NCBI RefSeq assembly: GCF_005780165.1
Contig: NZ_VAUV01000004.1
Coordinates: 186,001-250,000 of the forward strand
Direction: 5' to 3'
Length of the DNA: 64,000 nucleotides
Source: Phragmitibacter flavus
GTDB taxonomy: Bacteria; Verrucomicrobiota; Verrucomicrobiia; Verrucomicrobiales; Verrucomicrobiaceae
The position numbers were made by a program, and so were the translations under genes. The notes beneath the pieces were generated by a model. The model worked only from the letters and a program-made list of their open reading frames with translations, had not been told where the DNA came from and made no database searches. Shown here in pieces: positions 34,664-57,390 of the stretch. The first letter of the stretch is position 1; every line of letters starts with the position of its first letter.

Positions 34664-34694
34664 GGCTTTGAATGGCTGATAATTTTGCAACGGA

Positions 34695-36608: not shown

Positions 36609-37429
36609 TCCTCTACCTTGTCAGCGCCTTTCTCAATGCGGTAGAGTTTTCCGAAGCCGGTTTTGTCATCATCGCTCAGGGCGAACTGCAGCGTGCCGTG
36701 GCCATTTAGCGGGTAGTGCATGACGGATTGGCTGTCCCATTCGGTAAGCTCCTCCGCTCCCAGGCCGCCGCTCACCCATTTTTCCATGCGCTTTTTCTCC
36801 GCCGCAGTCATCCCCTCCTGGGCTTTGGGATGGATTTGTTCGTGGCGGAATCCCAGCACATGCCCCAGCTCATGCCGGATGATGCCGACCCGGTCGTAGA
36901 GGAGGTCAAGAGCGAAAGTGCCGGGGCCGATGAACACGATGCGGTCTTTCTTTGCGGCGTTGGGGAAGAAGGCCAGCGCGAGCAAGTTAGGATCACTCGG
37001 AAAGGGATGGTAGGCAAAAGTGAAAGCGGCTTTCTTCCCGGGTTCTGCGGGAGCAAAGCGGATCATATCCAGAACACCCTCGTCTTTTGCAGCCCTGTTC
37101 CAATCGTCGGCGGCTTGGGCGCAAATTGTTTTCGCGGTTTGAAACCAGGCTTTGTGTTCGCCAAAGGAAACCTCATCAATCGTCCAGCTAAGCACTGTGC
37201 CGGGCGCCCAACGGAGTTTTTTGTCATTCAAAGTGGCGACGATGAGACGGTCCACCGTGGCGGCGTCACGCTTCTCGTTAGAAAGCAAGGCGAGAGTTTC
37301 CCTCGCATAATTTTGAAGCTGGCTTGCAGGAATCACCAAATCGTTTTCGACGATGTAGCCGGTTTCATTGCCCGCCTGAATGGTCCGGGCGGTCTTTATG
37401 ATGTGTTCAGTCAGTTCGTTGGCATTCAT
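36596..37429 (-). CDS. Metzincin-type zinc protease
   Basis: A 277-residue protein with the full metzincin signature HELGHVLGFRHE (His186, Glu187, His190, His196) and the Met-turn Ser-Val-Met-His-Tyr (Met237). This places it near the astacin/matrixin families. The N-terminal 75 residues are a helical region of the sort that may dock to a partner (ELTEHIIKTARTIQAG). No signal peptide or transmembrane helix is seen, unusual for metzincins, which are mostly secreted. The stop overlaps the start of the HExxH protease gene. The N-terminal part may be an adaptor-like domain shared with other gene products of the operon (inference). Confidence 0.85.
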   Translation of the reverse strand: MNANELTEHIIKTARTIQAGNETGYIVENDLVIPASQLQNYARETLALLSNEKRDAATVDRLIVATLNDKKLRWAPGTVLSWTIDEVSFGEHKAWFQTAKTICAQAADDWNRAAKDEGVLDMIRFAPAEPGKKAAFTFAYHPFPSDPNLLALAFFPNAAKKDRIVFIGPGTFALDLLYDRVGIIRHELGHVLGFRHEQIHPKAQEGMTAAEKKRMEKWVSGGLGAEELTEWDSQSVMHYPLNGHGTLQFALSDDDKTGFGKLYRIEKGADKVEECHL

Positions 37430-37476
37430 AAGCGTGTCGTAATTTGAGTGATAGGTTGGAATGGAGATGACGGAGC

Positions 37477-39729: not shown

Positions 39730-39831
39730 GGTGGTGGTTGGAAGGATTGGATTGGTGAGGCAATGGTTCGGAATAAGATTTAGGGCTGGCAGTGTTTTAT
39801 ACTCGGATGGAGCAGGGAAATGTGAGGAGTG

Positions 39832-42800: not shown

Positions 42801-43512
42801 CGACATCTTTATCCAAAATTCCTGCAATGATGCGCAGAAGCTTTCCGTGCAAGTCCGTATTAAATGCCTCGACTTTCTTCGAAATGCCGCTTTCCCCTGC
42901 TGCTTTGAGGGCCTCTCGGTAAGCCGCAGGTGACGTCCAGCTTTGTGTGTTGTCTGGGAGGCGGAAGTCAGCAAAGTCGATCTCGGCTTCAATGTCCGAT
43001 ATTTTTTGATCTTCTCCCAACTTATACGAAAGAGATTTGGGATAACAGGGTTTTTCATCATCAGGGAGCTTTCCATCTCCTTTGTTTCGATGTGGATCTC
43101 CTTGGATAATGATTGGCAGGAGACAGTAATCCTCCTTTTTGCCTTTTTCTATGTTTTGCTTTTTGAATTCAAGGATTTCATCGCACATCCATGGACTTTC
43201 TGGAGCCTCGGGAGTGCAGAGGACGATCATGTAACGGGAGCGCCTGACTCTGGCACGTATTTCATCGGAGAGACTGGACCCATAAGGAAGCTGTTTTTCA
43301 TCACGAAAGACGGGATAGAGTCTTTCAGCAATCGTTTCTCCCCGTTTGTTTTTCGTGCCAACGAGTTCGGGCGGTATTTCGTAGGCTTGCAAAGCCTCTT
43401 GCAGCCAACTGCCCCATTGTCTTCCGGGTTCCCGGTTGTTGATGTGGCGGTAGCTGATGAAGCACCAGAACTCGCGTTCGGCATGGTTTTCAGGCGCTCC
43501 TTTGGGATTCAT
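39832..43512 (-). CDS. TIR-TM protein with about 17 tandem 41-residue helical repeats
   Basis: A 1226-residue protein. The TIR domain (about 14-150) starts EFWCFISYRHINN and carries SPWMCDEILEFKKQ with Trp108 and putative catalytic Glu112. A transmembrane helix lies at 262-279 (WLIAVVALAALAAWFGW). From about 370 to 1067 about 17 repeats of 41 residues run end to end, with a consensus of LVSALEN, about six variable residues, RLSxLxESLxKLADKLTP and DxAAxLAxR. They form two-helix units like HEAT repeats. A final 160 residues differ. It belongs to the eight-gene operon, between the cell-wall hydrolase and the lipase. Confidence 0.82.
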   Translation of the reverse strand: MNPKGAPENHAEREFWCFISYRHINNREPGRQWGSWLQEALQAYEIPPELVGTKNKRGETIAERLYPVFRDEKQLPYGSSLSDEIRARVRRSRYMIVLCTPEAPESPWMCDEILEFKKQNIEKGKKEDYCLLPIIIQGDPHRNKGDGKLPDDEKPCYPKSLSYKLGEDQKISDIEAEIDFADFRLPDNTQSWTSPAAYREALKAAGESGISKKVEAFNTDLHGKLLRIIAGILDKDVGDLAKWDKIAQLEREKAKAGTLRNWLIAVVALAALAAWFGWASWKEKQAAQTALTNTFSRIIGQSTSLSSIEVNTLWELAELNDKNEAVREKLLGVWLVGDPLPAFKNQAVGLHATVGLNRNRVDAFIWAEKLISTIEEPVDADSTRLSIFAELMMRFVVRLEPDDAAHLADRLVSAIENPQMSDRGRLFPLTEALANLADKVTSDTAAHLARSLVSIIEQRGEEDSFRLSRLAEPLGTLTNKLAPNKAFPLARSLIAAQVKPEEQNPDRLSVLSKSLDNLIGKLTSNEAETLAKSITLALENGNDRNSDRLSNLSSSLDKLADKLTPDMAKQFAHRLLSAIKKEDNNPDYIIHLSDSLKKLSDKLTPEMTASLARRLVSVLEETNPQFYDRRKLCSELLSKLADKLTPVNAAHLVKLLADALEKMGKEYPGGFPALAEPIVKLAARLTTDEADPYTKLLISGLENPEEWKRDYLSRLPESLSKLEGKLTPDRAAQLASRLVSALENPKVWERERITALAESLNKLTHRLTPDIAASLAKELASALGNTNEKNTARLSAFAESFAKLVAHLPPKMAEPLAIILGSSLEDSEDKGVEQICLLTKSSKKLASKLTPEMVAWLTESSVSALEYPKIWPSDSLSSLGESLALLVDYLNPEMAERLAGVLGSYLERWKGRNDERVSILIKSLTKLAEKLTPEMAAWLAPLLVAPPVIRPHEKNADSLSSLTESSENLTAKEAAPLARQLVDALIKSDGTNSRHLVKSLIKLSDNLTHDTTAPLAHSLIRAIEEPDQGYLNRPFVLAEALACLANRLNSVLCRNLTSRTVLALFKRTRFSLGLSQLVFMKTFPSDSTLSICRELLLQQLLPDAIPSSMDSSGKCRDPLPPEYLAVQHACQSLDIPSLANLLKSPFCVGTLQFLVLESLEKQIGQKFDGNLWKFVDLVKSEQATCRMKDIDLSAPVRRITLKEVMTALELEIKATEITTPVPTTAK
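40312..42405 (-). repeat. Tandem 123-base coding repeats
   Basis: Within the TIR-repeat gene about 17 units of 41 codons follow each other without spacers. Copies are diverged at the base level but share LTPxxAAxLAxxLVSALEN-type cores; two late copies are shortened by about three codons. Such arrays can gain or lose units by recombination and usually build elongated binding surfaces. Confidence 0.75.
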
Positions 43513-43526
43513 TGAGCGGCTGTTTC

Positions 43527-45479
43527 CTATTTTGGTTCCCCTTCGATCAAAATCACGGCATCCGAGATTCTGCCGGATTTGGGGAATCTTGTGCCGAGTT
43601 TTGCTTTCATGGCTTCGATGATGTCGATGACGCGCTGGCGGCTGTCTGTAAAGTTGATTTTGGAATTGGCGTCTTTCAGACCATCAGTGGGATTGAGGCA
43701 GCCGATGCTGCTGAGGTAATTCTCGCCGGGGTGGATGAGGATGGCGGTGCGTTCTTCGGTTTTCTGCAGGAGGAGGCCGGGCCTGGGCCGGTCTTTCCCG
43801 CTGGTATAGCCGTAGGTCTTGTAATTGGTGCCGTCCTGGATGGCGAGAGTGTAGGTTCCAGCGGCGATGCGGCGGTCTTGGTTGTCGCCGATGGCGGTGG
43901 TGTTATCGCCGGGGCCACCGCGTTCGACGATCTGGCCCCTGAGGTTTTTGATGGCGACGCCGTTCCAGTAACAGGTGTATTCACCGATAGTGCGGGCGTA
44001 GGCGATGCCGCTACGTTTCTCTTGGCGGATGCGTTTCAGATGGATGCAGAAGCCCTGTGCGGCGATGGCGGCGGGGCCGTGCAAACCGGCGGCCTGTGGT
44101 TGCGTGGAGGCCCGAGCGGCGGGGAGGTTGTTTTTCCACTGGTTCAGGAATGGCGTGGGATCGATGATGTCGCGACGGCGGAGGTAGGGAACGCCTGCGG
44201 CGGTGCGGGCGCCGACGGATGCGCCGACGCTGAGGGGGCCGGAGGCGGTTTTGTCATAGAGTTCCAGATGGAGCATGTCGCTGGGGACGGTGATGCCGAC
44301 GAGGTGGCCGACTTCGGCGATGGCTTGCCCGGCTCTGACGCGGTCTCCCTGCCTGACTTCGGCGTTGGCGGCGATCTCTCCATAACGGGCGATGAAGGTG
44401 CCGTGGTCGATCTCAAGCGCGTAAGTCCGGGCATAGAAGTCATAGGGACCGCGAATGACGACGCCGTCGGTGATCGCATGGATGACGGTTCCGGCGGGGA
44501 AATAGAGGTCGCACCCGGCATGGGCGCGGCTGCCGCTGGCGCGGCGCGCGCCGAAGGAACGCGGGGCGCTTGTCCAGTTGGCGGAGGGGAGCGTGGAGAA
44601 GGGGAAGTAGTGAGCAGGCGCTGCGAGTGCCGGTTCCTCTACGGAGTCGGTCAGCGGGCCGGTCTCGATGATGCGGAGCATTTCGCGCCAGGTTTTACCT
44701 TCCGGCTCAATGAGGCCGTCCGGCCGGGTGAGGAAGCGGCTCTGGAAGACTTTGATGGCTTTGACGGTGCTCGGCTTGGCCTCGTTGGAGGCGATCTTGC
44801 CGTCGTTGCCGAGGGGGTCGCAGGCGGGATTTGGCAGGATGATGGAGATTTGCAGAAGCATTTCCTGAACGGTTTTCACGTCTGCTTCGGTGTTCTGAGC
44901 GCCTTTTGCCGGGTCGCCGACAGAGCCTTTGATAACCCAGGAAGTGGTGATGCCGTCGAGGCTAACATTGACGCTTTGGTCGTCCGTGCCGTTGCGGCGG
45001 ATGCCGGGTTCCAGCAGTTCCAAAGTGGCGTTGAACTCGGACACGGGGACTTTGAAGCCACCGCCGATTTCATAGGCGGCCATGGCGGAGAATAAGTTGC
45101 GCAGCTGGCCGACATTGCCGATGGCCTGGGTGGTGGGATCGAAGATTTCGAGCCGTGTGTTCGGCCCGACGCCGACTCTGGCGATGACAAAGGCGGTGTA
45201 TTGCGCAGGGGAGTTGGGCGGCGCGCCCGGGAGGGAGCCGATGGTGTCGCTGGAGGGTGCCCAACGGGAGAGGATTTCGGCAATAGTTCTGCGGTTGTGC
45301 CGGAAGAAGTAGGATTTGAGCTGGAGGATGCCGGCACGGATGCCGTAAACGGCATCCTGAAAGACGGCGTGCCCTCTGGTATCGGTGCTGGAGTTTCTTC
45401 CATTGGCATCGAGCCAAGGAGACCGACCGTTTTTGACGTTGAGGTAATTCTTGTTTCGGATTCCTGTGGGTGTCGGCAT
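43527..45479 (-). CDS. Multidomain peptidoglycan hydrolase (P5-like, PG-binding, M23, DUF5675)
   Basis: A 650-residue protein. Residues 1-140 match the structural-protein P5-like domain of phage virion lysins (GIRNKNYLNVKNG; HAVFQDAVYGIRAG). Residues about 195-270 resemble a PG-binding-type helical module. Residues 300-410 are an M23 endopeptidase (SRAHAGCDLYFPAGT, His320 and Asp324; DMLHLELYD, His404), with Met where the first His of the usual HxH stands. From about 470 a DUF5675 domain follows (FCIHLKRIRQEKRSG; RTAILIHPGENY), an L,D-transpeptidase-like family. No signal peptide is present. It starts 14 bases before the TIR-repeat gene. Confidence 0.8.
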   Translation of the reverse strand: MPTPTGIRNKNYLNVKNGRSPWLDANGRNSSTDTRGHAVFQDAVYGIRAGILQLKSYFFRHNRRTIAEILSRWAPSSDTIGSLPGAPPNSPAQYTAFVIARVGVGPNTRLEIFDPTTQAIGNVGQLRNLFSAMAAYEIGGGFKVPVSEFNATLELLEPGIRRNGTDDQSVNVSLDGITTSWVIKGSVGDPAKGAQNTEADVKTVQEMLLQISIILPNPACDPLGNDGKIASNEAKPSTVKAIKVFQSRFLTRPDGLIEPEGKTWREMLRIIETGPLTDSVEEPALAAPAHYFPFSTLPSANWTSAPRSFGARRASGSRAHAGCDLYFPAGTVIHAITDGVVIRGPYDFYARTYALEIDHGTFIARYGEIAANAEVRQGDRVRAGQAIAEVGHLVGITVPSDMLHLELYDKTASGPLSVGASVGARTAAGVPYLRRRDIIDPTPFLNQWKNNLPAARASTQPQAAGLHGPAAIAAQGFCIHLKRIRQEKRSGIAYARTIGEYTCYWNGVAIKNLRGQIVERGGPGDNTTAIGDNQDRRIAAGTYTLAIQDGTNYKTYGYTSGKDRPRPGLLLQKTEERTAILIHPGENYLSSIGCLNPTDGLKDANSKINFTDSRQRVIDIIEAMKAKLGTRFPKSGRISDAVILIEGEPK

Positions 45480-45603
45480 GGCGTTCGAGTAGGTTAATGT
45501 TCGGTTTACGGGCGAAGGGCTCTGTCAGAGATAGAAGTTGGGCTTAATCGGGAGAAGAAAACTGCCATCGGAAATTAAGCGTTTGATCCTTCATCCAACG
45601 ATT

Positions 45604-46515
45604 TCAATTCGTTTCGTCCACATGACTCAGACGTTGAATGGTCGTCGGTTGATTGTTTTTCCATTTGGATTCGACGACTCGTTGAAAAAATTGTGCCCAT
45701 TCACCAGCTAGGCGTGGTTCGTTATTTCCAAGTGCGGCGATAATGGCGTTCCGGTCTCCCATCAGTGGGGTGAAAAAAGTTTCACCAGTTTTTGGATGGT
45801 ATTCCCCAAGCCATTTTTTTGAGCCTTTTTTCCACCATCCAAGCCCGGCGTGGTAAAAGTTTTTTACTCGAACACCCTTGGTATCCAGGTCCTCGACTTG
45901 CTCAGGATTAAGGAGATCCCAGAGTCCACCGTAATGATCCTGGTCATTGTGAGAACAAATCATCGCTTCCAGTTCGATCTGGTCGACTGCATAGTCATGG
46001 AAGAATTTCCAGTCTACAAAATCGGCTGCATTTTTTCCGGCATCCTGACTGGTCCTGGGCCAGCCCCCGTCGATGAGGATGTGCTGAAAGTCTGGGGTCT
46101 TTATGAGCAATCCGTCGCCTTGTCCTACATCAATGTAATAAAACTCCATTAAAGACTTTCCGCCCAAACTTTCATTCTTCACCCAACCGACACGATCCCG
46201 ACCTCTACTTCGCACCTTTGTCCGATCGACTCCCGGCTCTAGAATTTTTACGCCGTCTCCCCAGAGAAGATGAATACGCACAGGATCTTTTCCATCGCTA
46301 GATGGCTTGTCATTCCAGTAGAGTTCGGCCGTGTCCGTGCTGATGTGGTCATCGAATGGAGTGTTCATTAATATGGCTGTGTTATGAGCTTTAGAACGTG
46401 GGGCTTCCCGGTTCTCCTTGGAGAATCTATTGGCAATGGAATACTCCCTGTTACCCTTGGAATCGAAAAATATTACGCGATCAACGGAAAAATATCTATC
46501 GGGCTTTGTTGCCAT
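45604..46515 (-). CDS. MBL-fold protein, possibly C-terminally truncated
   Basis: About 303 residues from the ATG at 46515; a longer frame to 46617 exists but adds non-family sequence. The MBL strand YYIDVGQGDGLLIKTPD is followed by the metal motif CSHNDQDHYGG. Typical ComEC-like MBL proteins continue with further metal ligands (a G-D and a final His). Here the frame ends at LSHVDETN shortly after an expected C-terminal region starts, so it may be truncated or use only one metal site. It is the first gene of the minus-strand run, 124 bases before the hydrolase gene, so its place in the operon is probable but not tight. Confidence 0.65.
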   Translation of the reverse strand: MATKPDRYFSVDRVIFFDSKGNREYSIANRFSKENREAPRSKAHNTAILMNTPFDDHISTDTAELYWNDKPSSDGKDPVRIHLLWGDGVKILEPGVDRTKVRSRGRDRVGWVKNESLGGKSLMEFYYIDVGQGDGLLIKTPDFQHILIDGGWPRTSQDAGKNAADFVDWKFFHDYAVDQIELEAMICSHNDQDHYGGLWDLLNPEQVEDLDTKGVRVKNFYHAGLGWWKKGSKKWLGEYHPKTGETFFTPLMGDRNAIIAALGNNEPRLAGEWAQFFQRVVESKWKNNQPTTIQRLSHVDETN

Positions 46516-46617
46516 ACCATGAATCGTGGGGGAGCACGATGATCTGAAAATTGCTCGAATGAACAAACGAACCCACTTTACAACTTTGTGAGATCGATTT
46601 AGCTTGATCCCGCACAT

Positions 46618-46981
46618 GGAAACATGTGCCGAGGTTTAGAAGCCTCGCACACAGCGGCCCGGTGTTGGCCGCAAACGACACCCTAGCTCAGCAATGAGCC
46701 AGGGGCCATACGTGAATGTCCAGCCCTTTGGTTCGCCAGAGGGTAAAGACGTATGGAATCGTCTGTGTGCGATTCTTCTAACCTCTGGCTCACCCAGCCT
46801 GAGGATCAGCGGTGAGCAAGAACGCTCACTCTGCACTTTATGATTTTAGAAGAATCTCCGATCATTTCCTTCCTTTGGATTCAGCATCTAAGGCGATCAA
46901 AGGCGGCCAGCCTGTATCGCCAGAATTTTGGAGATGACGTCTCCGGGTTTGAACAGCAGATCCATAATTATTGAGATCATT
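46618..46981. other. Divergent intergenic region with inverted repeats
   Basis: This is the gap between the oppositely oriented effector operon and the PrsW operon, so it should hold both promoters. The inverted pair GCCAGAGG (46736) and CCTCTGGC (46782) encloses a smaller AGACG/CGTCT hairpin (46747-46764). No gene was recognised. Confidence 0.35.
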
Positions 46982-48229
46982 ATGCTGGTTTATCTATCCA
47001 TTGGCGATCGCCAGGAAGGGCCTTACAGTGTTGAGGAACTTCGGCAAAAAGTGCAGGAGGGAGAAATCGTTGCGGCAGAAACGCTGGCATGGCACGAAGG
47101 ACTGCCCTCGTGGTGCCCTCTCCAATCGGTGCTTCCCAAAGCGCAGGTTGATTCAAGATCACAGTCAAACCCGAGCTTTTTGGGACGAATCACCGATCAC
47201 GTCACCACGGCGGCAGGATCTGAAAAAATTGAGGGTTTCAGCTTGGGAAACTTCTTCTCGGAGGTGTTTTCCAAACACGACGAAGATAAAATTGAAGCGA
47301 GCTTCGCAGTAGGCACCCAGGAAACGACGCCTCCGCTTGAACTTGTGGATGCCAACTGGCCCAAGCCTTGGCTGTTCTTTCGATGCCTTTGTGCCGCAGT
47401 TATTGTCTATGCAATTTTGCTTTGGGGATATCGAAAGTTTGAAAACCCCAATTTGCTTCCTGGCATCATGCTGGTGGGATCGTTTGGCGTGCCGATCGCC
47501 ACGCTCGTGTTGTTTTTTGAAGTCAATGTGCTGAAAAATCTCTCCGTTTACCGGGTGATCAAAGGATTCATGCTTGGTGGGGTTCTCGCCCTTATTGGCT
47601 GCCTTTTCCTGTTCGAGATTCTTTCGGGATGGAATGAGCTGTTAGGGGCTTCGGTGGCAGGGCTCACCGAGGAGCCTGCCAAATTGCTCGCGGCCATCTG
47701 GCTGGTGAGACAAAAAAATATCAGCAACCCTTTGAATGGTCTGCTCCTCGGTGCGGCTGTTGGAGCGGGTTTCGCTGCATTCGAATCCGCGGGTTACGCC
47801 TTTAATATTGTGTTTGATTCACACAATCAAAACATAGCGCTTCTTTTGGATGGTGCGACTAGCGGGTTTACCAATCCTGTGCAGGCTATGATTGCCAACA
47901 TCGAAACCAGGGGACTTCTGTCACCCTTGGCTCACATCGTTTGGACTGCTATTTCTATGGCGGCATTTGTGCATGCTAAAGGGATTCGACCAATTTCCAT
48001 GGAGGTGTTCAAGGACTTCCGCTTCTGGCGCGTTTTCGGCATAGCGATTCTTCTTCACATGGCATGGAACAGCCAATGGCTGCACCAGTTCACCGGATAC
48101 TTTGGATGGCTTGGACTCGGTCTGATCGCATGGATCATCATGATCAGCCAAATGCAAAGGGGCCTCAAAGAGATCAAGCACGAGCAGTCTCTCGCGACCC
48201 ACAACCTCCAGCCATCGCCAGTCCCATGA
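46982..48229 (+). CDS. GYF_2-PrsW membrane protease
   Basis: About 415 residues from the ATG at 46982; the family begins with this strand. Residues 2-60 form a GYF_2 domain (YLSIGDRQEGPYSVEELRQK; LAWHEGLPSWCPL). Several transmembrane helices follow from about 130 (FFRCLCAAVIVYAILLWGY onward). The PrsW protease motif is TEEPAKLLAAIW (Glu230/231), with GAAVGAGFAAFESAGYAFN, HIVWTAIS and LLHMAWNSQW supplying the other conserved residues. PrsW-type enzymes cleave transmembrane anti-sigma factors or other membrane proteins. The stop overlaps the next start (ATGA at 48226). Confidence 0.85.
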   Translation: MLVYLSIGDRQEGPYSVEELRQKVQEGEIVAAETLAWHEGLPSWCPLQSVLPKAQVDSRSQSNPSFLGRITDHVTTAAGSEKIEGFSLGNFFSEVFSKHDEDKIEASFAVGTQETTPPLELVDANWPKPWLFFRCLCAAVIVYAILLWGYRKFENPNLLPGIMLVGSFGVPIATLVLFFEVNVLKNLSVYRVIKGFMLGGVLALIGCLFLFEILSGWNELLGASVAGLTEEPAKLLAAIWLVRQKNISNPLNGLLLGAAVGAGFAAFESAGYAFNIVFDSHNQNIALLLDGATSGFTNPVQAMIANIETRGLLSPLAHIVWTAISMAAFVHAKGIRPISMEVFKDFRFWRVFGIAILLHMAWNSQWLHQFTGYFGWLGLGLIAWIIMISQMQRGLKEIKHEQSLATHNLQPSPVP

Positions 48230-49449
48230 ACAATTCGAACAGCAAATGGTATTACCTGCATAATGGAGAGCCGGCGGGGCCGATTTCTCACGAAACCGTT
48301 CAGAGCAAACTGATCCGTGGAGAACTGCATTCTGATGACCTCGTTTGTGCTGAGGGGGATGAAGACTGGCGCAGCCTGGGAGAATCTCTGCCTGAACTGG
48401 TAGCAGCCACCGGCAAAGCTCCTATTCTTCCTCCAGTCTCTCCCCGAGGTTTGCCAACGAAGCGAACCAAAGTGCCAAAATCTGTTTTATGGGTGGCAGT
48501 GGCTTTAGCGCTTGCTTCGGGAGCCGCCTATTTTTGGAAGCAAGCTAATGACAGAGAGAAAACCCGCCAGATCACCATCTCTAATCTAGAACTCCAGTTG
48601 AGATATGCTTATCAATCGGGATCAAAAGGCTCTGTCCCGGCCTTGATCAAAGAGCTTCATGCAATGGCTCCGAAAAGCGAAGCCCTGATATCGGTGTGCA
48701 TGCAGATGGCCATGGATTCGCTGGGTAGGGGACTTGATTATAGTGGCGATGACGCTGCTCGATATCTGGTGATCGCCGCAAACGCGGGAATCTCTGAAGC
48801 TCAATACATGTTGTCCCGGCTGGTTATGAGTGGTAAAACGCATTTGGAGACTCCGCAACAAGCACTGGCGAGATGTCAAAGTGCGGCGGAGGCAGGTTTG
48901 CTAGAAGCACAGTTCCAGTGGGGGCTGATATTGCTTCGCAGGGATGGTGAGCAGTCAGATCCGAATGAGGCGGTTAAATGGCTAAAACTTGCTGCTGGCC
49001 GTGGGCACACCGAAGCGAGATATCAGCTGGCGACAGTGCTGCTGAAGCAAAACGAAGAAGATGCCGAAGCTCCAAAGTGGTTGAAGGAAGCAGCAGAGGA
49101 TGAACATCCTGATGCAAAGCTGATGATGGGGCTTTTGCATTTGACCGGTCAAAATGTAGTGGCGGACAATAGTCTGGCCTTCCATTGGATCAAAAGCGCT
49201 GTCGCTGCAGGATGTAGTGAAGCTACCCTCCATTTGGGTCGCTTATATGAACACGGCATCGGAACCACTGCAAACGTTGACCTGGCAGTTGAGAATTACC
49301 GAAAAGCCGGTGCCGCAGGAATTGTCGAGGCATCATTGGCCCTCGACAAACTTTTAGCCGAGTCGGAATCGAGCACGGCGGAGCTTCGATTGCCGGATTC
49401 CGTCACCACTTATCTACGACATGGCGAAATCGGATCGCCAGTTCAATAG
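48226..49449 (+). CDS. GYF_2-TM-Sel1-repeat protein
   Basis: A 407-residue protein starting at 48226, overlapping the PrsW gene. The N-terminal GYF_2 domain (WYYLHNGEPAGPISHETVQS) is followed by a transmembrane helix (VLWVAVALALASGAAYFW, about 87-105). Five or more Sel1-like repeats fill the rest (EAQFQWGLILLRRDGEQSD; EARYQLATVLLKQN; EATLHLGRLYEHGIGTTANV). Sel1 repeats are helical scaffolds for protein-protein contact. Membrane-anchored with the repeats on one side, it is a plausible partner or substrate of the PrsW protease. Confidence 0.8.
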   Translation: MNNSNSKWYYLHNGEPAGPISHETVQSKLIRGELHSDDLVCAEGDEDWRSLGESLPELVAATGKAPILPPVSPRGLPTKRTKVPKSVLWVAVALALASGAAYFWKQANDREKTRQITISNLELQLRYAYQSGSKGSVPALIKELHAMAPKSEALISVCMQMAMDSLGRGLDYSGDDAARYLVIAANAGISEAQYMLSRLVMSGKTHLETPQQALARCQSAAEAGLLEAQFQWGLILLRRDGEQSDPNEAVKWLKLAAGRGHTEARYQLATVLLKQNEEDAEAPKWLKEAAEDEHPDAKLMMGLLHLTGQNVVADNSLAFHWIKSAVAAGCSEATLHLGRLYEHGIGTTANVDLAVENYRKAGAAGIVEASLALDKLLAESESSTAELRLPDSVTTYLRHGEIGSPVQ

Positions 49450-49497
49450 CAGGCCGATCATCATCGCCCCGATGTCTATTTCATCAGCGTTTCTCCC

Positions 49498-50976
49498 ATG
49501 AAAATCATTATCGTTTCCTTCTCTCTTTTGCTCTTCCTTTGTCGGATTGCGGTTGCGGAAGTGGCTGGACTTGCTGTCGTTCACACGGGTTCCAATGCCG
49601 ACTCTTTTGCGAAGGTTTACGAATTCATTCAACTTGAACGTTTTAAGCTGAGTGCGCAAGGAAGTTTCAAGCTGACGCTGACCAATGGTCAGCCGATGGC
49701 TGGTTTGGCTGCTCATCTGCGCCAAGTCATTGAGTATCCCTCACCACACAACGATCTAACGGATGCAGCGGTCGCGACTGCCTTCCTGCAAAGCAAGATT
49801 GAGGAGATGGAAAAGGCACACAAAAAGTTCGAATACTCTCGCCCTTATCTTGTCCCTAGAATCAAGCAGGCCCGGGAAATGCTGACTCAGGCAAAAGCAG
49901 GGCGAGTGCTTATCAACGGCAATTGGATGGAGCAGTCGGCTTATGCGGCGTTGGTCGCTAAAAGAAGAAGCGAAGAAATTCCAGAGATGACAATCGATGA
50001 GCAGGCCTTGAAGCAAGTTAAGCTCAGGGGGGTCACTGACAGAACGCTCATCGTGGAACACAGTAATGGCATGTCGCGGTTATCGATGGAGAAGCTGAGC
50101 TATGGGCAGCTCAAAGAGTTTTTCCGCATTAGCGAACTGGCGAAAACCAGCGCTGAACTGAAATCGCTGCACGAGCAATTTCATCCGGAGATTATCCTCA
50201 ATGGCACCAAAAGACTGGGAGTGCGCGTGGTTGAGATCAAAGAAGACGAGATCATCATCACCAGCGAGGACGGACCAGTAGTCCTCTCTATAAAAAACAC
50301 AGAACGCAAAACGCTTGAAATACTCTCCTCCCGGTCGGCGACTCTAAATGAGCATCTCCAAGGACCGGCCAAACACTACCAGAACGGGCTATTGGCAGAG
50401 CAGGCCAAAAACTGGGGAGCTGCCTACGCAGCCTACCAACTGGCAGCGGATGGCGAACATTTGGAAGGCATGGTGAACTATGCAACATTAATTGCCGAGG
50501 GGAAAGGGGGAGACCTGGACGCATCGAAGGCACAAGATTTATTTCAACGCGCTTCAAAGCAAGGCGACGCAATCGCCGCATTCAATCTGGGTTTGTTGTT
50601 ATTTAGGTCTACGACGAAGGGGCAATCGAATGTGTCTTTGGTAACGGCGCTGGAACAGGCTGCGGCAAATGGAATTCACCAAGCTAGCCTGCTCTTGGGA
50701 GTGGTGCACCTTTCAGGGCGTGGAGCACCTGTCGATTTTGCAAAAGCGCGCAAGTTCGTGGATGAGGCCATTCGTCACTCCGTGTCCGGGGCGCAAGACG
50801 TCTTGCGAGAACTGGAAAACAAGACTGCACCGCTTGAGGAACCACCAGTGGATCATGCAAGCATTGGGACGCAATCCATCAAAGCATTAATTGAGAGGAC
50901 GTCGGGCGCTGATGCTCATAACCGGGCAACCGACTACTCTAGTTTTAGAGCGCGATTCCCCGTCCAAGACCGCTGA
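49498..50976 (+). CDS. Exported Sel1-repeat protein
   Basis: A 492-residue protein with a signal peptide (MKIIIVSFSLLLFLCRIAVA). The N-terminal half, rich in Lys and Glu, is of unknown fold (FKLTLTNGQPMAGLAAHLRQ; VLINGNWMEQSAYAALVAKR). Sel1 repeats follow from about 290 (HYQNGLLAEQAKNWGAAYAA; DAIAAFNLGLLLFRST; ASLLLGVVHLSGRGAPVDFA). The gene lies 48 bases downstream of the GYF-Sel1 gene and ends 21 bases before the lipoprotein gene, so the four form an envelope operon. Confidence 0.75.
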   Translation: MKIIIVSFSLLLFLCRIAVAEVAGLAVVHTGSNADSFAKVYEFIQLERFKLSAQGSFKLTLTNGQPMAGLAAHLRQVIEYPSPHNDLTDAAVATAFLQSKIEEMEKAHKKFEYSRPYLVPRIKQAREMLTQAKAGRVLINGNWMEQSAYAALVAKRRSEEIPEMTIDEQALKQVKLRGVTDRTLIVEHSNGMSRLSMEKLSYGQLKEFFRISELAKTSAELKSLHEQFHPEIILNGTKRLGVRVVEIKEDEIIITSEDGPVVLSIKNTERKTLEILSSRSATLNEHLQGPAKHYQNGLLAEQAKNWGAAYAAYQLAADGEHLEGMVNYATLIAEGKGGDLDASKAQDLFQRASKQGDAIAAFNLGLLLFRSTTKGQSNVSLVTALEQAAANGIHQASLLLGVVHLSGRGAPVDFAKARKFVDEAIRHSVSGAQDVLRELENKTAPLEEPPVDHASIGTQSIKALIERTSGADAHNRATDYSSFRARFPVQDR

Positions 50977-50997
50977 ACCTGAAGTTGAGAATTTTAA

Positions 50998-51495
50998 ATG
51001 CGCGTTCTCCACACTCTTATGGGCGTCCGATTTCTAGGTTTGGTAGAGTCTATTCTCTTCTTGTTGCTTGTAGCCATTTGCCTCCCTGGCTGCTCGCCAT
51101 CTCCGGGTGATGCGATCACAGACGTGCTCAACCAATGTGCAGCGATTGGTTCTGCAAGCGCGCAGTATGAACAAGACCAAGGGATTCAAGCGAGGTTCAT
51201 CGCCACAGAGTTTCAGAGGGTTGACGTCTCTGCATGCCCGGGAGATTTTCGAATGGCCTTTCAGGTTCATGTTTTTGCATGGCAAAATGCAGAAGAATAT
51301 CTCGCGAAAAACACGCTCGGCACAGCATTTTTGGAAGGCTTTTTAGCAGGCCTCACTGACAACCCCGCATGGATTGGGAAGACAAGTAGCGATGTGGCCG
51401 TAGCAAATCAGCAGATCAATGAAACCTACTTCACGCTGACTCAGGTCGCGGCAGCACATGGCGCTCGCATTCCGAGATCCGTTGCAGGTGAATGA
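50998..51495 (+). CDS. Lipoprotein of unknown function
   Basis: A 165-residue protein with a signal sequence ending in the lipobox LPGC (VAICLPGCSPSPG), so it is predicted to be lipid-anchored. The mature part is helical with no motif I can name (ACPGDFRMAFQVHVFAWQNA; LAGLTDNPAWIGKTSS). It closes the envelope operon and is followed by the AT-rich segment that starts the mobility module. Confidence 0.7.
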   Translation: MRVLHTLMGVRFLGLVESILFLLLVAICLPGCSPSPGDAITDVLNQCAAIGSASAQYEQDQGIQARFIATEFQRVDVSACPGDFRMAFQVHVFAWQNAEEYLAKNTLGTAFLEGFLAGLTDNPAWIGKTSSDVAVANQQINETYFTLTQVAAAHGARIPRSVAGE

Positions 51496-51786
51496 CTCTC
51501 GGGGTCTTTTCCGAAGTCACTTGTTACGTGCCGTTGAAAAAAATGCGGGGCAAAGCGGTTTTTCCCGAGATGTCGGTGCTAGAGCGTTTTGTTTTCTAGC
51601 CGAATCGGGAGGAGGCTCGCATCAGCTCAAGGCGAGTTTAATGCCTCTATTTCCCAATAATTTCTCATTTAAAGTGAGACGAGGTATCTGTCGGACCTGA
51701 TTGTCACAATTCGCTTCACTTGGAGAGTATAGTGTGATTTTCCAAGATTACCGTTTTTCGGATCACGGACACCGGTACCAAGCTTT

Positions 51787-52018
51787 TTATAAAGTTCTAT
51801 GGCTCAAAACTTTATAATTATAAACTTATGAATCTTCAATCGTTTTAGTGTTATTTCATACTAATCCCCTCAATATGAATGTTATAGAGATTTAGTCGTT
51901 ATAAAGTTTCGCGAAAAATAAAAGTATACAAGTTATAATTTCTGGTTGTAAAAGGTTGATCATCAACAACTTACAAAATGCTGTTGAGGAACGCGTTTGC
52001 GCATAAATAATCCCCTCA
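51787..52018. promoter_or_regulatory. AT-rich repeat cluster, candidate replication or control site
   Basis: Three copies of TTATAAAGTT (direct at 51787 and 51899, inverted at 51808) lie in 122 bases. A second direct repeat, TAATCCCCTCA, occurs at 51862 and 52008. A palindrome GTTGATCATCAAC sits at 51955-51967. The segment is much richer in A+T than its surroundings and lies at the end of the mobility module, before the replication-protein relic. It fits an origin, iteron or transfer site, or an operator array. The whole stretch from 51496 to about 52270 contains no gene I can recognise. Confidence 0.4.
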
Positions 52019-52269
52019 TGAAGCCGATGCGCCTCCCTGGGTAATCACTAAGTAATTCCCTGATGAATCCCACCCTGAGTTGATGACGATTGCCCATTTA
52101 TAAGGATAAAAGAGCCAAGATGTCGTCAAATCGTTGATGCGGGCCATTTGGAGATCCGTAAACAACGTGCCTGTGCTTTAGCGATAAAACCATTCTTCAT
52201 CCAAAACTACTTCGGAAAAGACGCGCAAATGGCAATTTCGGCAATTTACCCGTTTCAAGCCCTAACTCC

Positions 52270-52645
52270 GCATTAAGCCAACGCTTTTGACGTTTGATGC
52301 GCCGACAACACAATGGCTGCGGAACGCATGAGTGAATGCTCACAAGCATCTGTTAAACGCGCATGGTCGCTTTTGGTGGAAAAATGCGTAATTAGCCGAT
52401 TTGTCACCAATTACGGCGCTAACAGCGTTCAGTTGCTAAACAATGCATATCGACGACAAAAGTGCACAAAAAAACGTCGAAACCAGGAAATCTCGCGATT
52501 TGCCACCTTATGGCGTACAGTTCATTCGTGATTGGGAATATCTCGTTTTTAACTATCGCATCTCTTTGTATTGAAACTCCGATCATGTCGGGCGGCAAAT
52601 TCACTAATGACGCTTTAGCGCTGCATATTGATGAATTGCCAATCT
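52270..52645 (+). pseudogene. Decayed fragment of the replication-initiator-like gene
   Basis: Plus-strand sequence translates, across three frames and several stops, into a match to the middle of the intact minus-strand gene at 52973-55039. The matching pieces are FDV-stop-CADNTMAAERMSE against LDVCWADNKALGRMSE; SVKRAWSLLVEKCVISRFVT against AIKRALAFLESEGSISRLLV; LPPYGVQF against LPLYGRQF; and IETPIMSGGKFTNDALALHI against the ASPSMWGSSYLGGAMGLYV block. It is an inverted, strongly decayed relative, so two related elements or copies met here. Confidence 0.75.
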
Positions 52646-52972
52646 GAGTGCTCGAAAGTTACAAATAGCAGCTTTCGCTCACATTTTCAAGATAGCATCA
52701 AAATTGCGATCTAACATGTTAGTGCTGAAACATTGACACGTATCTGGATGGTTGACCGCAACGGTGACGTGATCAGCGCCCAGAGTTCGGACCGGGTTAA
52801 GTGTTAGTCGGTTATTTTTGCGGAGGCCGTGCCAACAATCTGCTTACTGAGCAGGCAGAGAAGACTCGGACGCGATTTCGGGGCCAACCTTAAAAAGACT
52901 GAATCGAGTGCAGCCTACAAATTCGTGCCATGCGGGACAATTTCGCATTGTGAGTGAAGTATGGCCTCCTTT

Positions 52973-55039
52973 TCAGGCAGCAGTTTTAAGGAGGGAGCGC
53001 GGTTTGGAATCTTTGATTTTCTTCTGCAACCACTCTTCCGCAAATTTAGCGGTATCGACGTTATTTGCGGACAAGTGCGTACGATGCAGCACCCACCACG
53101 CTTCAACCTGCTCAGGCTCCAGTCTTCTTAAATAGCCGAACAAACCAATAAATGGTGCATCAGGCGTCAAAACTTTCAGAGGGATACCTTTGAGTGTCCA
53201 CTCCAAGAAATCCAACGTGTCTTCGTCGAACACCCCGTTTTTACGTAAACGGAACCAGTCGTACACAATTTTCCGGGACCACACGAGACTTGGGAACAAA
53301 GCACTAAACCTGTGCGCCAGTGGATCTTGTAGGATTCCGCCACTGAACCTGCTATTCAAACCTTTAGCACGTGCAATCCAGTCGTAGATGCTGTCGTCCT
53401 GCAACGCCAAAGTGACATCCGCACCGGTGGGAGCGTAACCGGGAACGTAGCCTTGATGTTCTTTTTCTTCTGGAGCTGCATTTTTACCGGGAATAGTGCC
53501 TTCGTCTCTTTTATAGACAGCTTCTAGATTGCGATCTTCGTCAAAGACATACACGCATACTGGTCGAGGATCCTTGTAACGCTTCGCGGTGCCCGGGAAT
53601 AGTGGCAGCATGCGCTCTCCTGTTCCTACGATATGAGCTTCTTCCAAGCCAATTATGCTTTCTTGCTTCCGCATCCCAGCCAGAAGACCATGCGTCCCTA
53701 CAACAGGCAGCCTCTTGGGCTTCGCCCGACCTGCTGCTGTGCCAGGACCCTCCGGGGAGAGCTGCTCCTCTATAACGGCCTCTTCTAGCAGCGCCTGAGG
53801 CGAAGCCTGTTCTGCTGCGCCTGCCTCAGCCGCGACTGCTCTGCTGGAAGAAATTTCCGAATCCCTCTTTAGAGGGCAAGGGGTGCTAGAAGTACTTGTA
53901 CTTCTTATCTTATTATGTAGGTCCCTATCGGGCTCAGGTTCTGCTTCCTCGAAATGAAGCGTTTCACTAGGTAGATCGCTACTCCCGGTGACGTCAGAAA
54001 CGTTAAGAATTCGGGTCGACTTTTTCCTCTTGGCGTCAGACTCTGGATCGATTTCCCACTTGTGCGGCTTCTCCAGATGTTCAACCAACGTGCCCTTCTC
54101 AACGTCAACTTCCAGCCAGCAAAGACCCGCTGCGCGCAAAATACCGTTCAAGTCGACGAATTTGCTATCAAACTCTTTGGCGACACACAATGTGTTGCCT
54201 TTGCCGTCCGTAACCCAAATGCGCGTCAAAGTCTGCTCGTCGACACGCTTGTATGCAATTTCGATTCCGATGTGCGGAAACAACGTGCGCAGCTGCTCTT
54301 TGCATCCTTCCAACAATCCGTTGGGCGCTTCTTCAACATACAATCCCATTGCGCCGCCAAGATAAGAGCTTCCCCACATCGACGGTGACGCAATGCAGCG
54401 AAATGCCATCGTTAGCGCCAAGTAGCCCCAATAGGGTGTAAATTGACGCCCATACAGCGGAAGGTCTTTAAGTTGCACTTTGACCTTCTTTCCCGGAGTT
54501 CGTTTGTCGACGTTGGTTTTCAGCAATCGCATGGTGTCGACGCCGTCATTAACGAGCAAACGGCTAATCGAGCCTTCTGACTCTAAAAATGCCAACGCAC
54601 GTTTAATTGCGGTTTCACCGCGTTCCGACATGCGCCCGAGCGCTTTGTTGTCCGCCCAGCACACATCGAGCACATTTGAGCAAAGAGAGCTGATTGTTGA
54701 AAATAGCTCGATAGCGGACCACTTGCGTTTGCGAGTGCGCTTAATCAAATAATTCCGCGTTCCTTGGCCTTTACGGTAGTACACCGGAGCATGCTTCGTT
54801 AGGAGGCGAATGCTCCTCTTGCTGAACTGTCGGTAGGTTTTGATCTCATCCAACTCCTTCAGCGTCTTGTCGCTGTTTTCAACTGCCGTGAGAATATCTT
54901 CCGGGTAGTCAGCGGCGATTACCCGGTCGAACTGTTTGCCCAATCTGTTCAACGGCCTCGTGGGGTTGCTGTAGCGTGAGTAACTGTGATTGTTCCCTAC
55001 AGTATTAGGCGGAATTTTTTGACTAATGATGTTTACCAT
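52973..55039 (-). CDS. Large replication-initiator-like protein of the mobile element
   Basis: A 688-residue protein without a clear named family. Residues about 80-330 hold a helical and winged-helix-like region (GRMSERGETAIKRALAFLES) and a beta-rich block, as in plasmid or phage replication initiators. Residues 340-480 are low-complexity, rich in Glu, Ser and Ala, a likely linker. The C-terminal 170 residues form a second domain (LHRTHLSANNVDTAKFAEEW). The position next to an excisionase, regulator and integrase, the AT-rich repeats and the decayed copy all point to element replication. Primase or relaxase motifs were not seen. Function is inferred only. Confidence 0.55.
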   Translation of the reverse strand: MVNIISQKIPPNTVGNNHSYSRYSNPTRPLNRLGKQFDRVIAADYPEDILTAVENSDKTLKELDEIKTYRQFSKRSIRLLTKHAPVYYRKGQGTRNYLIKRTRKRKWSAIELFSTISSLCSNVLDVCWADNKALGRMSERGETAIKRALAFLESEGSISRLLVNDGVDTMRLLKTNVDKRTPGKKVKVQLKDLPLYGRQFTPYWGYLALTMAFRCIASPSMWGSSYLGGAMGLYVEEAPNGLLEGCKEQLRTLFPHIGIEIAYKRVDEQTLTRIWVTDGKGNTLCVAKEFDSKFVDLNGILRAAGLCWLEVDVEKGTLVEHLEKPHKWEIDPESDAKRKKSTRILNVSDVTGSSDLPSETLHFEEAEPEPDRDLHNKIRSTSTSSTPCPLKRDSEISSSRAVAAEAGAAEQASPQALLEEAVIEEQLSPEGPGTAAGRAKPKRLPVVGTHGLLAGMRKQESIIGLEEAHIVGTGERMLPLFPGTAKRYKDPRPVCVYVFDEDRNLEAVYKRDEGTIPGKNAAPEEKEHQGYVPGYAPTGADVTLALQDDSIYDWIARAKGLNSRFSGGILQDPLAHRFSALFPSLVWSRKIVYDWFRLRKNGVFDEDTLDFLEWTLKGIPLKVLTPDAPFIGLFGYLRRLEPEQVEAWWVLHRTHLSANNVDTAKFAEEWLQKKIKDSKPRSLLKTAA

Positions 55040-55123
55040 TTAAATTGGAGTGTGTTGGGATTTGCTTATTAGAATTTGCGAGGTGCCCAAGGGAGGAAGC
55101 AATGGACACCTCGCCACTACAAT

Positions 55124-55408
55124 TTAATTCGAGGCCACTCTAAATTTCTCGAGAGCTTCTGAAACAAGCGCTTTATCAAAACGGACGGTGCGACCAATTT
55201 TGGTATAGGGCACGACCCTTCGTGCCATCCAATTGTCGATCGTCCTCACGGAAACACCATACTGGCGCGCGATCTGGGATTTCCCAAGCAAAGGTCGGAA
55301 CTCTTCGCTTCTATAGTCATCAAGTTGATGGGTCGGTTTCTTCACGACACTAACTACTGGATTTTCTTGTAGTGGCAAGCATAAATTCACAAAATATTGC
55401 ATTCTCAT
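55124..55408 (-). CDS. Excisionase-like MerR-type DNA-binding protein
   Basis: A small protein with a winged-helix DNA-binding motif of the excisionase group: RPLLGKSQIARQYGVSVRTI, followed by DNWMARRVVPYTKIGRTVRF. Such proteins bend DNA at attachment sites and favour excision by the neighbouring integrase. The start is not certain; the ATG at 55408 puts it head-to-head with the XRE-type regulator, so the two promoters share a short divergent region. The C-terminus ends ALEKFRVASN. Confidence 0.75.
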   Translation of the reverse strand: MRMQYFVNLCLPLQENPVVSVVKKPTHQLDDYRSEEFRPLLGKSQIARQYGVSVRTIDNWMARRVVPYTKIGRTVRFDKALVSEALEKFRVASN

Positions 55409-55433
55409 GAATTGTTGCGTAATGCTAAATCGC

Positions 55434-55991
55434 ATGCGCACACGATTTTCAGCAGCCCTACAAGACGTTCTACAAAATTTAAATATGACTCAAAGCCATT
55501 TCGCTCGGGAGGTGGGCCTTAGTCATACCATGATTGGGAAGCTCATTAAAGGCGAGCCGGGAAAAATTGAGACCTACCGGAAGATTCTGGGATATTTTGA
55601 CGAAGACCTGCGGGAGCTTAGAGAAACGCCGAATCGGAAGTATGGTGTCGCGCTATTGGATGCTTATTTCATGGACACACTGGACGCACTTCAGCTTCCA
55701 ACCGAAGAGGAAGGATTATGGCGGGTTACCTCGAAGATTCGAACTATCTCGGAAGATACGATAGGCAATCTTTTTTGCAATTTCAGCCGAGAAGTCCTGC
55801 TTGCACTTGAAGTCATTGGTTCTGCTACCAATACAGAGCATGGCTTCAACTTGTTGATGACGATGGCAGAATCGCTCAATAATGGCAAAAGACCTCCCAA
55901 GGGGTTCTTTGCTCAGTTTATACGGAAGCCTAAGGAACGAGTCCGGCTAACCGGCAGCCTTTCTGCATGGAGTGCTAAACTTGATCTCTAA
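55434..55991 (+). CDS. XRE-family transcriptional regulator
   Basis: About 185 residues. The N-terminal HTH reads MTQSHFAREVGLSHTMIGKL, typical of Cro/cI regulators. The C-terminal 120 residues are helical and of unknown fold (YFMDTLDALQLPTEEEGLWR). It is divergent from the excisionase gene, the usual place of a repressor that controls it, and its stop overlaps the integrase stop (convergent, 55988-55991). Starts at 55407 or 55422 are in frame; 55434 keeps the HTH spacing usual for the family. Confidence 0.75.
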   Translation: MRTRFSAALQDVLQNLNMTQSHFAREVGLSHTMIGKLIKGEPGKIETYRKILGYFDEDLRELRETPNRKYGVALLDAYFMDTLDALQLPTEEEGLWRVTSKIRTISEDTIGNLFCNFSREVLLALEVIGSATNTEHGFNLLMTMAESLNNGKRPPKGFFAQFIRKPKERVRLTGSLSAWSAKLDL

Positions 55992-57166
55992 CGCTTCTCC
56001 TGCACAAGGCGCTCAGGAGAGGGAAAGATACTGAAATATTCGTCTCCGAGGTCGAACTGAACCGCTGCCTGATAGTGGCGCTTCACCACTGCGGGAGAAT
56101 TTCCCATTATCTCCGATACCGTTCCAATGTCCCGGGTTCTGGCCATCTCATAAGTCCCGAAACTGTGCCTCGTAGCGTCATGTGGCCATTCCACCAATTT
56201 GGCTTTCTGCTTGGCTCGATCAAGAAGCGTTCGCAGGTTCGATGGTGCAATCAAGCCTTGTGTATCCTTGTATGGTTCCAGCCACGCCTGGAGGTTGGAA
56301 CTGAGTGGCACCAGTCGCTCCCTACCCCCCTTTGCAACAGTAGCTCTAATCCTAATATGCTTCGTATGGAAATTCACGTCCTTCCATGCAAGCCGCTTCA
56401 GCTCGGCATCTCGGAGACCGCCGAAAAACGCAATGCTAAGATAAGGAACAGCGGCCACGTCGGCGGCCTGCAAAATTTTACGCACGCTTTCCACGCTGAG
56501 AATTCCCGGTGGCTCTGCTTTTACATTTCTAGGATCGATTCGTGTGATAATGTTGCCTTGCGCCCACTGTTGATCGTGGGCAAAGGACCACAATACATTA
56601 AGGAGGCGTCTGTAATTGTTATACGTTACGGGCTCTACATTTAAAGATTCAAGCCACTCTTCAACTTCTGACTTTTCAATTTCAGCAATTTCCCTTCCAG
56701 CAAAACTGGTTTGAAATCGTGTCAGCCGATTTTGCAGATCCTCTTGATAGCGTTTGCTCACCTTTTTCTTCTGCTTTTTTATTAGTAGTGCATCTACGAC
56801 ATCCTCAATCATCCGCGAAGAATGCTTTGCACGCAGATGCTCAAGATAGAATCGAACTGCATCGCAAACAGTTTTCCCAAACGGTGCCAGCGAATTTTTG
56901 TGCTCCAGAAAACGTCTTTGCTCACTTTCCGAAACGGATGCTGCAACCTCAGCACCCAAATTCCCTGCTCCAATAGCCCACTTCTCTCCCAAAGCCTTCC
57001 CTTCTGCCTGAGTTCCGCAATATTTTTGCTCCAAGATTGCGCCATCTCTACGGATCACAGCGATTGCTTCATATCCAGGCTTTTTACAGCGTTGGACGGA
57101 TATCGTCACACCACCGAATCGCTTTCTATAAATGGGTTTTCGAGAATGTTGACTACTTCGAGGCAT
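55988..57166 (-). CDS. Tyrosine recombinase (integrase)
   Basis: A protein of about 392 residues from the ATG at 57166; the open frame extends to 57250 but adds a poorly fitting leader. It has an N-terminal SAM-like core-binding domain (EDLQNRLTRFQTSFAGREIA) and a catalytic domain with Arg (FFGGLRDAELKRL), His-x-x-Arg (HDATRHSFGTY) and the nucleophile Tyr (VVKRHYQAAV). The three residues are intact, so it is probably active. It lies directly beside the partial tRNA at 57261-57322, the classic arrangement for an element that uses a tRNA gene as attachment site. Confidence 0.85.
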   Translation of the reverse strand: MPRSSQHSRKPIYRKRFGGVTISVQRCKKPGYEAIAVIRRDGAILEQKYCGTQAEGKALGEKWAIGAGNLGAEVAASVSESEQRRFLEHKNSLAPFGKTVCDAVRFYLEHLRAKHSSRMIEDVVDALLIKKQKKKVSKRYQEDLQNRLTRFQTSFAGREIAEIEKSEVEEWLESLNVEPVTYNNYRRLLNVLWSFAHDQQWAQGNIITRIDPRNVKAEPPGILSVESVRKILQAADVAAVPYLSIAFFGGLRDAELKRLAWKDVNFHTKHIRIRATVAKGGRERLVPLSSNLQAWLEPYKDTQGLIAPSNLRTLLDRAKQKAKLVEWPHDATRHSFGTYEMARTRDIGTVSEIMGNSPAVVKRHYQAAVQFDLGDEYFSIFPSPERLVQEKR

Positions 57167-57260
57167 CCGATTATGAATAGAAACGAAAGATAATGAAATC
57201 AAACGAAATAAGCGGATTTTAAGAGGATGCAAAGCTTTCTTCCCACTCAACTCAACAAAC

Positions 57261-57322
57261 GCAACGGACTTAAAATCCGTTGATGAGCGATCATCGTGTG
57301 GGTTCGAGTCCCACCAGCGGTA
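57261..57322 (+). tRNA. tRNA-Leu(TAA) 3' half, probable attR
   Basis: The 3' part of a tRNA-Leu gene without its 5' half: an anticodon stem-loop ACGGA-CTTAAAA-TCCGT (57264-57280, anticodon TAA), a long variable arm (TGATG to CATCG), a T-arm GTGGG-TTCGAGT-CCCAC and the acceptor end AGCGGTA. No matching 5' acceptor strand ACCGCT precedes it. Integration at a tRNA 3' end leaves such a duplicate at one junction and restores the intact gene at the other. It is therefore read as the right attachment site of the element that carries the integrase, with the intact tRNA-Leu to the left of this window. Confidence 0.75.
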
Positions 57323-57390
57323 TTTGAGCTGGTTGAAAACCAGGATGATTTAACTTCTCTTCTTCGCGGAGAATTCGACGCACGCAAAAC

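Follow-up and report, generated by a model that had tools for sequence, protein, structure and literature searches.

A putative 104-kb integrative element at tRNA-Leu(TAA) of Phragmitibacter flavus and its relatives in Verrucomicrobiota

The closest known counterparts of the locus analyzed here are tRNA-targeted tyrosine-integrase islands and prophages such as KplE1, which is integrated at argW in E. coli. In the account given by Panis et al. (2010; PMC2951348), the core of KplE1 is a tRNA 3' end accompanied by integrase arm-type sites, the tRNA is restored upon integration, and the integrase promoter region overlaps the att region; all of these features have apparent equivalents here. The survey in the same paper counts 1273 of 8368 integrase genes as adjoining a tRNA, with the opposite-divergent and integrase-before-tRNA orders jointly making up less than 8% of the 1273. 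Unlike in KplE1-type islands as treated in that paper, the integrase of the present locus diverges from a displaced tRNA fragment and lies tens of kb from the intact tRNA. Tycheposons (PMC10872708), compared by description only, are large cargo elements of 4-200 kb bordered by a tRNA and carrying a tyrosine recombinase, as here, but an operon with clamp and Red-like genes such as the one reported below is not mentioned in the part of that description used for comparison.

We analyzed a stretch of 64,000 nucleotides (the window; C4:186001-250000, where C4 is contig NZ_VAUV01000004.1) from the 5.9-Mb, 44-contig genome of P. flavus (G000). Labels such as G001 and G011 denote relatives' genomes in a set of 57 that includes its own. 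The preliminary description of the window held that the 3' part of a tRNA-Leu(TAA) lies to the right of an intact integrase gene, that the complete tRNA with the same 3' end lies upstream of the window, to be found there through a direct repeat of 57261-57322, and that 1-57,322 is therefore all element, a defence island of more than 57 kb. A genome search located the repeat: window 57259-57325 is identical to C4:139341-139407 over 67 bp (E 5.6e-29), 64 of them within the tRNA gene, from just 5' of the anticodon stem to 3 bp beyond the gene end. The right-hand limit proposed earlier, 57322, is exactly the end of the tRNA, and the repeat begins 2 bp before 57261. The intact tRNA-Leu(TAA) occupies C4:139320-139404 (window -46680 to -46596), 46.6 kb left of the window and on the same contig and plus strand as the fragment. 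Genome-wide, tRNA-Leu(CAA), at 83%, was the one additional match at E<=0.001. The preliminary description had named an intact copy within the window, or a little to the left of 51.7 kb, as the finding that would make the element small; ARAGORN detected no complete tRNA in the window, and BLAST of 57240-57345 against the window returned no second copy of the fragment, the next best match being 15 bp. Nothing in the window reached an Rfam gathering score, and at E<=10 the top match was a sub-threshold tRNA-Sec (26.5 bits vs 47); the fragment is named tRNA-Leu(TAA) because it matches the intact gene, as Rfam alone would not name it.

The two 67-bp repeats are 103,918 bp apart, with 46.6 kb of this distance outside the window to the left, so the element is larger than first proposed, and by these ends window 1-57325 lies wholly within it. 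With a tyrosine integrase between its ends and a direct repeat of part of a tRNA, one copy of which lies inside the intact gene, the locus has the build of a tRNA-targeted tyrosine-integrase genomic island. Taken as a whole, the data are best explained, with high confidence, by window 57259-57325 being the attR of a 103,918-bp tyrosine-integrase integrative element inserted in the 3' half of tRNA-Leu(TAA). In favor of this reading, the GC content within the element is 0.528, vs 0.575 and 0.573 in the flanks, and its tetranucleotide usage deviates from that of the flanks. Against it, the 164-172 kb bin inside the element does not deviate, and the right-flank bin at 244-252 kb does.

The integrase gene is, as first described, an intact open reading frame, and it points away from the tRNA fragment (Table 1). 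Between its start and the fragment, 43-61 bp upstream of the start, is a pair of 8-bp repeats, TAAGCGGA and TAAGAGGA, spaced 11 bp apart (right arm pair, TAAGCGGATTTTAAGAGGA); the left arm pair, TAAGCGGACAATAAGCGGA, is found 100 bp inward of the left repeat. When both strands of 180 kb were searched for TAAGCGGA-like pairs 11 bp apart, allowing at most one mismatch per 8-mer, two were found, one per element end, and six simulated sequences of equal length and dinucleotide make-up contained none. The assignment of the ends is thus independently supported, because the arm pair occurs at each end and nowhere else in the 180 kb. Such spacing recurs among related integrases, counted together with the present one. 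From 31 loci taken, 4 were dropped (no match or short gene), and among the 27 used (among L057-L086 and L106) 16 had 8-bp direct repeats exactly 11 bp apart directly upstream of the integrase, vs 4.8% of 207 within-gene control windows; 10-bp spacing was enriched too (8/27) and 12-bp spacing was not (0/27). Searching for 8-mers common to both end regions proved a weak test, with 3.3% of random pairs equally good, and the paired-repeat tests were used instead. From these sequence comparisons, the paired 8-bp repeats about 11 bp apart are likely to be integrase arm sites.

Table 1 Features of the element and its cargo (window coordinates unless prefixed with C4).
Feature	Position	Strand	Evidence or remark
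RHS-repeat protein, 4907 aa	C4:141471-156194	-	between left end and operon
kinase (mad6-like), MAD7-like, mad8/HerA-like run	C4:170304-181023		left of window
right-hand 57 kb of 103.9-kb element	1..57258	.	position between the two repeats
thymidylate-kinase-, HMUDK-, thymidylate-synthase-like genes, two TIR-like genes, Nmad2 gene	768..5917	+	Pfam
serine recombinase C-terminal fragment, remnant of other mobile element	7690..8121	-	Pfam PF07508, PF13408
three TIR proteins, one with SLOG domain	8192..14036	-	Pfam
Gabija pair GajA (641 aa), GajB (549 aa), adjacent	14662..18233	+	PADLOC E 2.6e-222, 1.5e-203
LmuA (Lamassu)-like metallo-beta-lactamase-fold protein	20935..22035	+	PADLOC LmuA E 8.4e-66
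ThsB-like TIR protein and second TIR protein	28197..30754	+	PADLOC ThsB E 5.9e-73; TIR_2 E 8e-11
amidase, TIR-SLOG, astacin-like, lipase, TIR, M23 peptidase genes in run	30836..45479	-	Pfam
PrsW-like protease and Sel1-repeat genes	46928..50976	+	Pfam; two Sel1/PrsW ORFs overlap in ORF list
HTH_17 protein, 105 aa, candidate excisionase/directionality factor	55124..55441	-	PF12728 27.6 bits, cut-off 27
HTH_3-like protein, 194 aa, possible regulator	55407..55991	+	PF01381 21.8 bits, just under cut-off 23
tyrosine integrase, 392 aa, pointing away from attR	55988..57166	-	Pfam PF00589 (Phage_integrase) E 2.9e-12
paired arm-type repeats, 11 bp apart, putative integrase-binding sites	57209..57227	+	left partner pair C4:139508-139526
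putative attR: tRNA-Leu(TAA) 3' fragment	57259..57325	+	identical over 67 bp to left end, C4:139341-139407 (window -46659 to -46593, within and just past intact tRNA)

Matches to the integrase were found in 44 of the 57 genomes (own included) and were mostly distant. A tRNA-Leu(TAA) 3' fragment beside the integrase start was present in G014 (55%), in a record named Akkermansia muciniphila (47%), in G012 (38%) and in G011 (36%); G014 belongs to the same family as the source organism. No tRNA motif was found beside the integrase in G029 and G013, which are among the nearest integrase relatives, and G039 has an apparent fragment of a different tRNA in this position. The intact tRNA is 57.1 kb from the fragment in G011 and 14.6 kb in G012, and the same arm pairs occur at either end.

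The layout of these elements combines an intact tRNA at one end and an integrase beside a fragment at the other with matched pairs of arm sites at each. It delimits 13 of the 16 regions examined, spanning 14.6-104 kb in 8 genomes. A first pass identified tRNA repeats in 4 of 13 candidate regions, and longer stretches, taken for 7 of the other 9, delimited 6 more. Three of the 13 are at tRNA-Leu(TAA), namely the present element (103.9 kb; the largest delimited), the first element of G011 (57.1 kb) and that of G012:C6 (14.6 kb). Direct repeats also mark the ends of elements at tRNA-Leu(TAG) (G025:C7, 71 kb), tRNA-Leu(CAA) (G025:C1, 32.5 kb; G002, 88.8 kb), tRNA-Gly (G033:C3, 36.7 kb; G023:C2, 45 kb), tRNA-Phe (G012:C7, about 54 kb), tRNA-Thr (G012:C11, 63 kb) and tRNA-Lys (the second element of G011, 69 kb). 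The repeat of the 39.5-kb G012:C3 element is the 5' half of a tRNA-Arg, and the 38-kb G030:C5 element has a comparable 45-bp repeat (91%), with no tRNA called there by ARAGORN. The G012:C3 element (about 257.9-297.4 kb; L175, L115, L135), whose tRNA is tRNA-Arg(CCT), also carries a 26-bp arm repeat that is identical at both ends. End repeats were not found in G030:C9, where the contig ends, or in G033:C10 and G012:C12.

The integrase is opposite the intact tRNA in all 13 delimited elements, a count that leans toward the layout because regions were chosen partly for having the integrase on the expected side. The integrases of G033:C10, G012:C12 and G029:C51 are located elsewhere, that of G029:C51 directly adjoining the operon described below, and G002 has an additional integrase piece directly beside the intact tRNA. 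Matched arm pairs (0-3 total mismatches, spacing 10-12) were present at both ends of 13/13 elements and were equalled by 0 of 60 interior stretches in each, where the stretches compared were chosen by the analyst from known ends. The arm motifs mostly differ between elements, the two tRNA-Gly elements having one in common. The integrases of the delimited elements fall into three clusters, and the layout is therefore not that of one clone.

Left of the window, genes g35-g41 of the element (C4:160977-166255) contain a block that tblastn of the element genes showed to be common to the G011 element at the same tRNA. g36 is a PD-(D/E)XK nuclease (PDDEXK_1 E 5.8e-29) for which no solved relative was found by sequence. 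The product of g41 is similar to the beta clamp of DNA polymerase III (NCBIfam E 4.9e-18, under the curated cut-off; solved clamps were also matched), and those of g39 and g40 appear to be membrane proteins. No Pfam family matched g35, and its structural model has a poor mean pLDDT of 62.4, rising to 85-87 over residues 121-170. Four of its best five Foldseek matches are the Red-beta C-terminal domain (6m9k, 8tg7), solved with lambda exonuclease or SSB peptide (prob 0.91-0.96, E 0.7-1.0); there were no Foldseek matches at E<=0.001. In the lambda Red module, Red-beta is encoded beside an exonuclease-type gene. The protein with a possible Red-beta-like C-terminal domain (a weak fold match, E 0.7-1) is likewise encoded beside an exonuclease-type gene, though unlike in lambda the nuclease here is of the PDDEXK_1 (Cas4/RecB-like) type. 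The model comparison suggests, as a lead only, that g35 and the adjacent g36 nuclease are a Red-like pair.

The g36 nuclease is present in 19 of the 57 genomes, and the clamp-like protein, distinct from the housekeeping DnaN, in 18, with 29 copies (strong matches, E <= 3e-60). When 20 blocks taken from 14 genomes were examined together with the G011 element, all 21 contained g35 and g41, and 20 of the 21 contained the nuclease. Since nuclease and clamp matches had served to select the blocks, these counts indicate clustering, not prevalence. Blocks outside the delimitation set were those of G001, G004, G018, G028, G029:C86, G032, G048 and G025:C2. Nuclease and clamp genes occur in 12 of the 13 delimited elements (G012:C6 being the exception) and g35 in at least 11. 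At the phylum level, a g35 profile had matches in 23 of 387 genomes, at most nine in any one; some of the matches are the halves of a single gene, and certain genomes have near-equal repeated copies. G175 and G271 have up to five and nine g35-like genes, respectively, some with near-equal scores and one with an in-frame TGA. Other members of the operon group further encode an ATP-dependent ligase, DUF932, SRAP, S24 peptidase or DUF5906; the DUF932 cluster member was not found in the P. flavus element, where the clamp is followed by DUF3150, DUF1257 and AAA genes, as in G048. The operon is 21.6 kb from the tRNA here vs 0.6-7.5 kb in several relatives.

As an individual island, the element is of an ordinary kind and well delimited; the surrounding family is what merits attention. 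On balance, the sequence comparisons lead us to favor the view that Verrucomicrobiota have a previously undescribed family of integrative elements, of which the 104-kb element is the largest one delimited. This family would be defined by matched arm pairs at the two ends, an integrase at the end opposite the restored tRNA, and a conserved operon that processes the DNA of the element itself. The operon would encode a Red-beta-like protein, a PD-(D/E)XK exonuclease and a sliding-clamp paralogue, in many cases together with ligase and DUF932, and the cargo would be interchangeable and could consist largely of anti-phage genes. Among the matches listed from the open-access literature, no paper apparently describes such a family, which is weak evidence of novelty with subscription papers outside this scope.

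Probable anti-phage genes abound in the cargo, which includes Gabija, nine TIR-matching proteins (two under the Pfam cut-off) and Thoeris-, Lamassu- and MADS-like genes. Gabija is represented by GajA next to GajB. In the MADS-like run, MAD7 scored 83.8 bits vs a curated cut-off of 410 and mad6 and mad8 were only partial PADLOC matches, so the run is not assigned to MADS; HipA, MazG_C and M78 peptidase genes (Pfam) follow it. Window 768-5917 looks, from its Pfam matches, like a nucleotide-modification cluster. Of ten right-hand proteins searched with PADLOC, eight had no match at E<=1e-5. From the left end, the order is Y1 transposase, RHS protein, RCC1 protein and then the operon. The term defence island is apt for much of the cargo; it does not fit the leftmost ~20 kb, with the transposase, the giant RHS protein and the RCC1-repeat protein, or the many genes without a recognized function.

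In the 57 ORFs of the element, with small ORFs only partly included, Pfam matches contained neither the relaxase and type IV secretion genes that mark an ICE nor the capsid, terminase, portal and tail genes that mark a prophage. IMG/VR yielded no confirmed integrase relative and no exact occurrence of the tRNA core pattern; in phage and plasmid collections the integrase had weak matches. The clamp-like protein has two weak IMG/VR relatives (24-25%) and weak plasmid matches, and the nuclease has weak phage and plasmid matches. The 57 genomes (own included) were queried with the tRNA, the gene on the right flank and the permease on the left flank, and no empty site emerged: in 29 loci (±1.5 kb around the relatives' tRNA-Leu genes), none of the near flank genes was beside the tRNA. 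For the transporter gene g117, which lies 24 kb beyond the right end of the element, G018 has a 62% homologue adjacent to the tRNA; the gene was rejected as a marker, being of a multi-copy type with a better G018 match elsewhere. In G012:C6 (L016/L096), a 77% homologue of the right-flank gene (window 57391-) is 0.8 kb downstream of tRNA-Leu(TAG), possibly a trace of an old neighborhood. Beyond the element's right end, window 59818-63051 (+) encodes a GC-rich 1077-aa protein with passenger-associated-transport repeats.

That the fragment is a chance or decayed duplicate unconnected with the integrase would fit its escaping recognition as a tRNA by Rfam alone, but the zero mismatches over 67 bp, the arm pairs at both ends and the 12 further elements of like build make this reading barely credible. 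Tandem arrays do occur at tRNA hot spots, and two or more elements side by side at tRNA-Leu(TAA) could have left the left and right ends of different elements; we consider this very improbable, given that the genome holds only two copies of the core besides tRNA-Leu(CAA), the arm pairs of the two ends match each other, and a Pfam family search of the genome found a single tyrosine integrase, and no second one, between the ends.

A more serious contender, which we nonetheless think is probably not the case, is that the ends come from one ancestral element into which other elements later inserted, contributing much of the 104 kb, so that the whole may no longer move as a unit. Later additions are suggested by the serine-recombinase remnant at window 7690-8121 and by the Y1 transposase gene, which adjoins the left end; in addition, the RHS and RCC1 genes separate this transposase from the operon, the operon is farther from the tRNA than in several relatives, and the element exceeds the other 12 delimited ones in size. 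Against this, the arm pairs and cores remain intact at each end, and the family order of operon, integrase and ends has been kept. One pair of ends does not prove a single arrival of all 104 kb.

For an integrative element with its attR at window 57259-57325, the following course of events is proposed. The tyrosine integrase would have recombined the tRNA 3' half on a circular element with the chromosomal tRNA gene, restoring the tRNA at the left end and leaving the displaced 3' half at the right end, such that the integrase gene would end up far from the intact tRNA. The integrase most likely binds the paired 8-bp arm sites flanking the core on both sides, and recombination of the left and right ends, aided by the HTH_17 protein, would release the circle. 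Because the arm pair sits so close upstream of its start, the integrase probably represses its own gene, by analogy with intS of KplE1 as presented in PMC2951348. The operon may process or recombine element DNA, and transfer between cells may need a helper.

These results convert a gene-rich window without known limits into an element mapped at each end to the exact base, making excision and transfer directly testable. They also provide a rule, a tRNA-derived repeat together with matched 8-bp pairs, spaced by about 11 bp, at each end, by which most of the regions examined could be delimited. Surveys that look for integrases next to intact tRNA genes can miss elements of this kind because the integrase is up to about 100 kb away. 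If it is true that the nuclease/clamp operon serves the element itself, these elements would be carriers of anti-phage genes of a kind for which we found no description.
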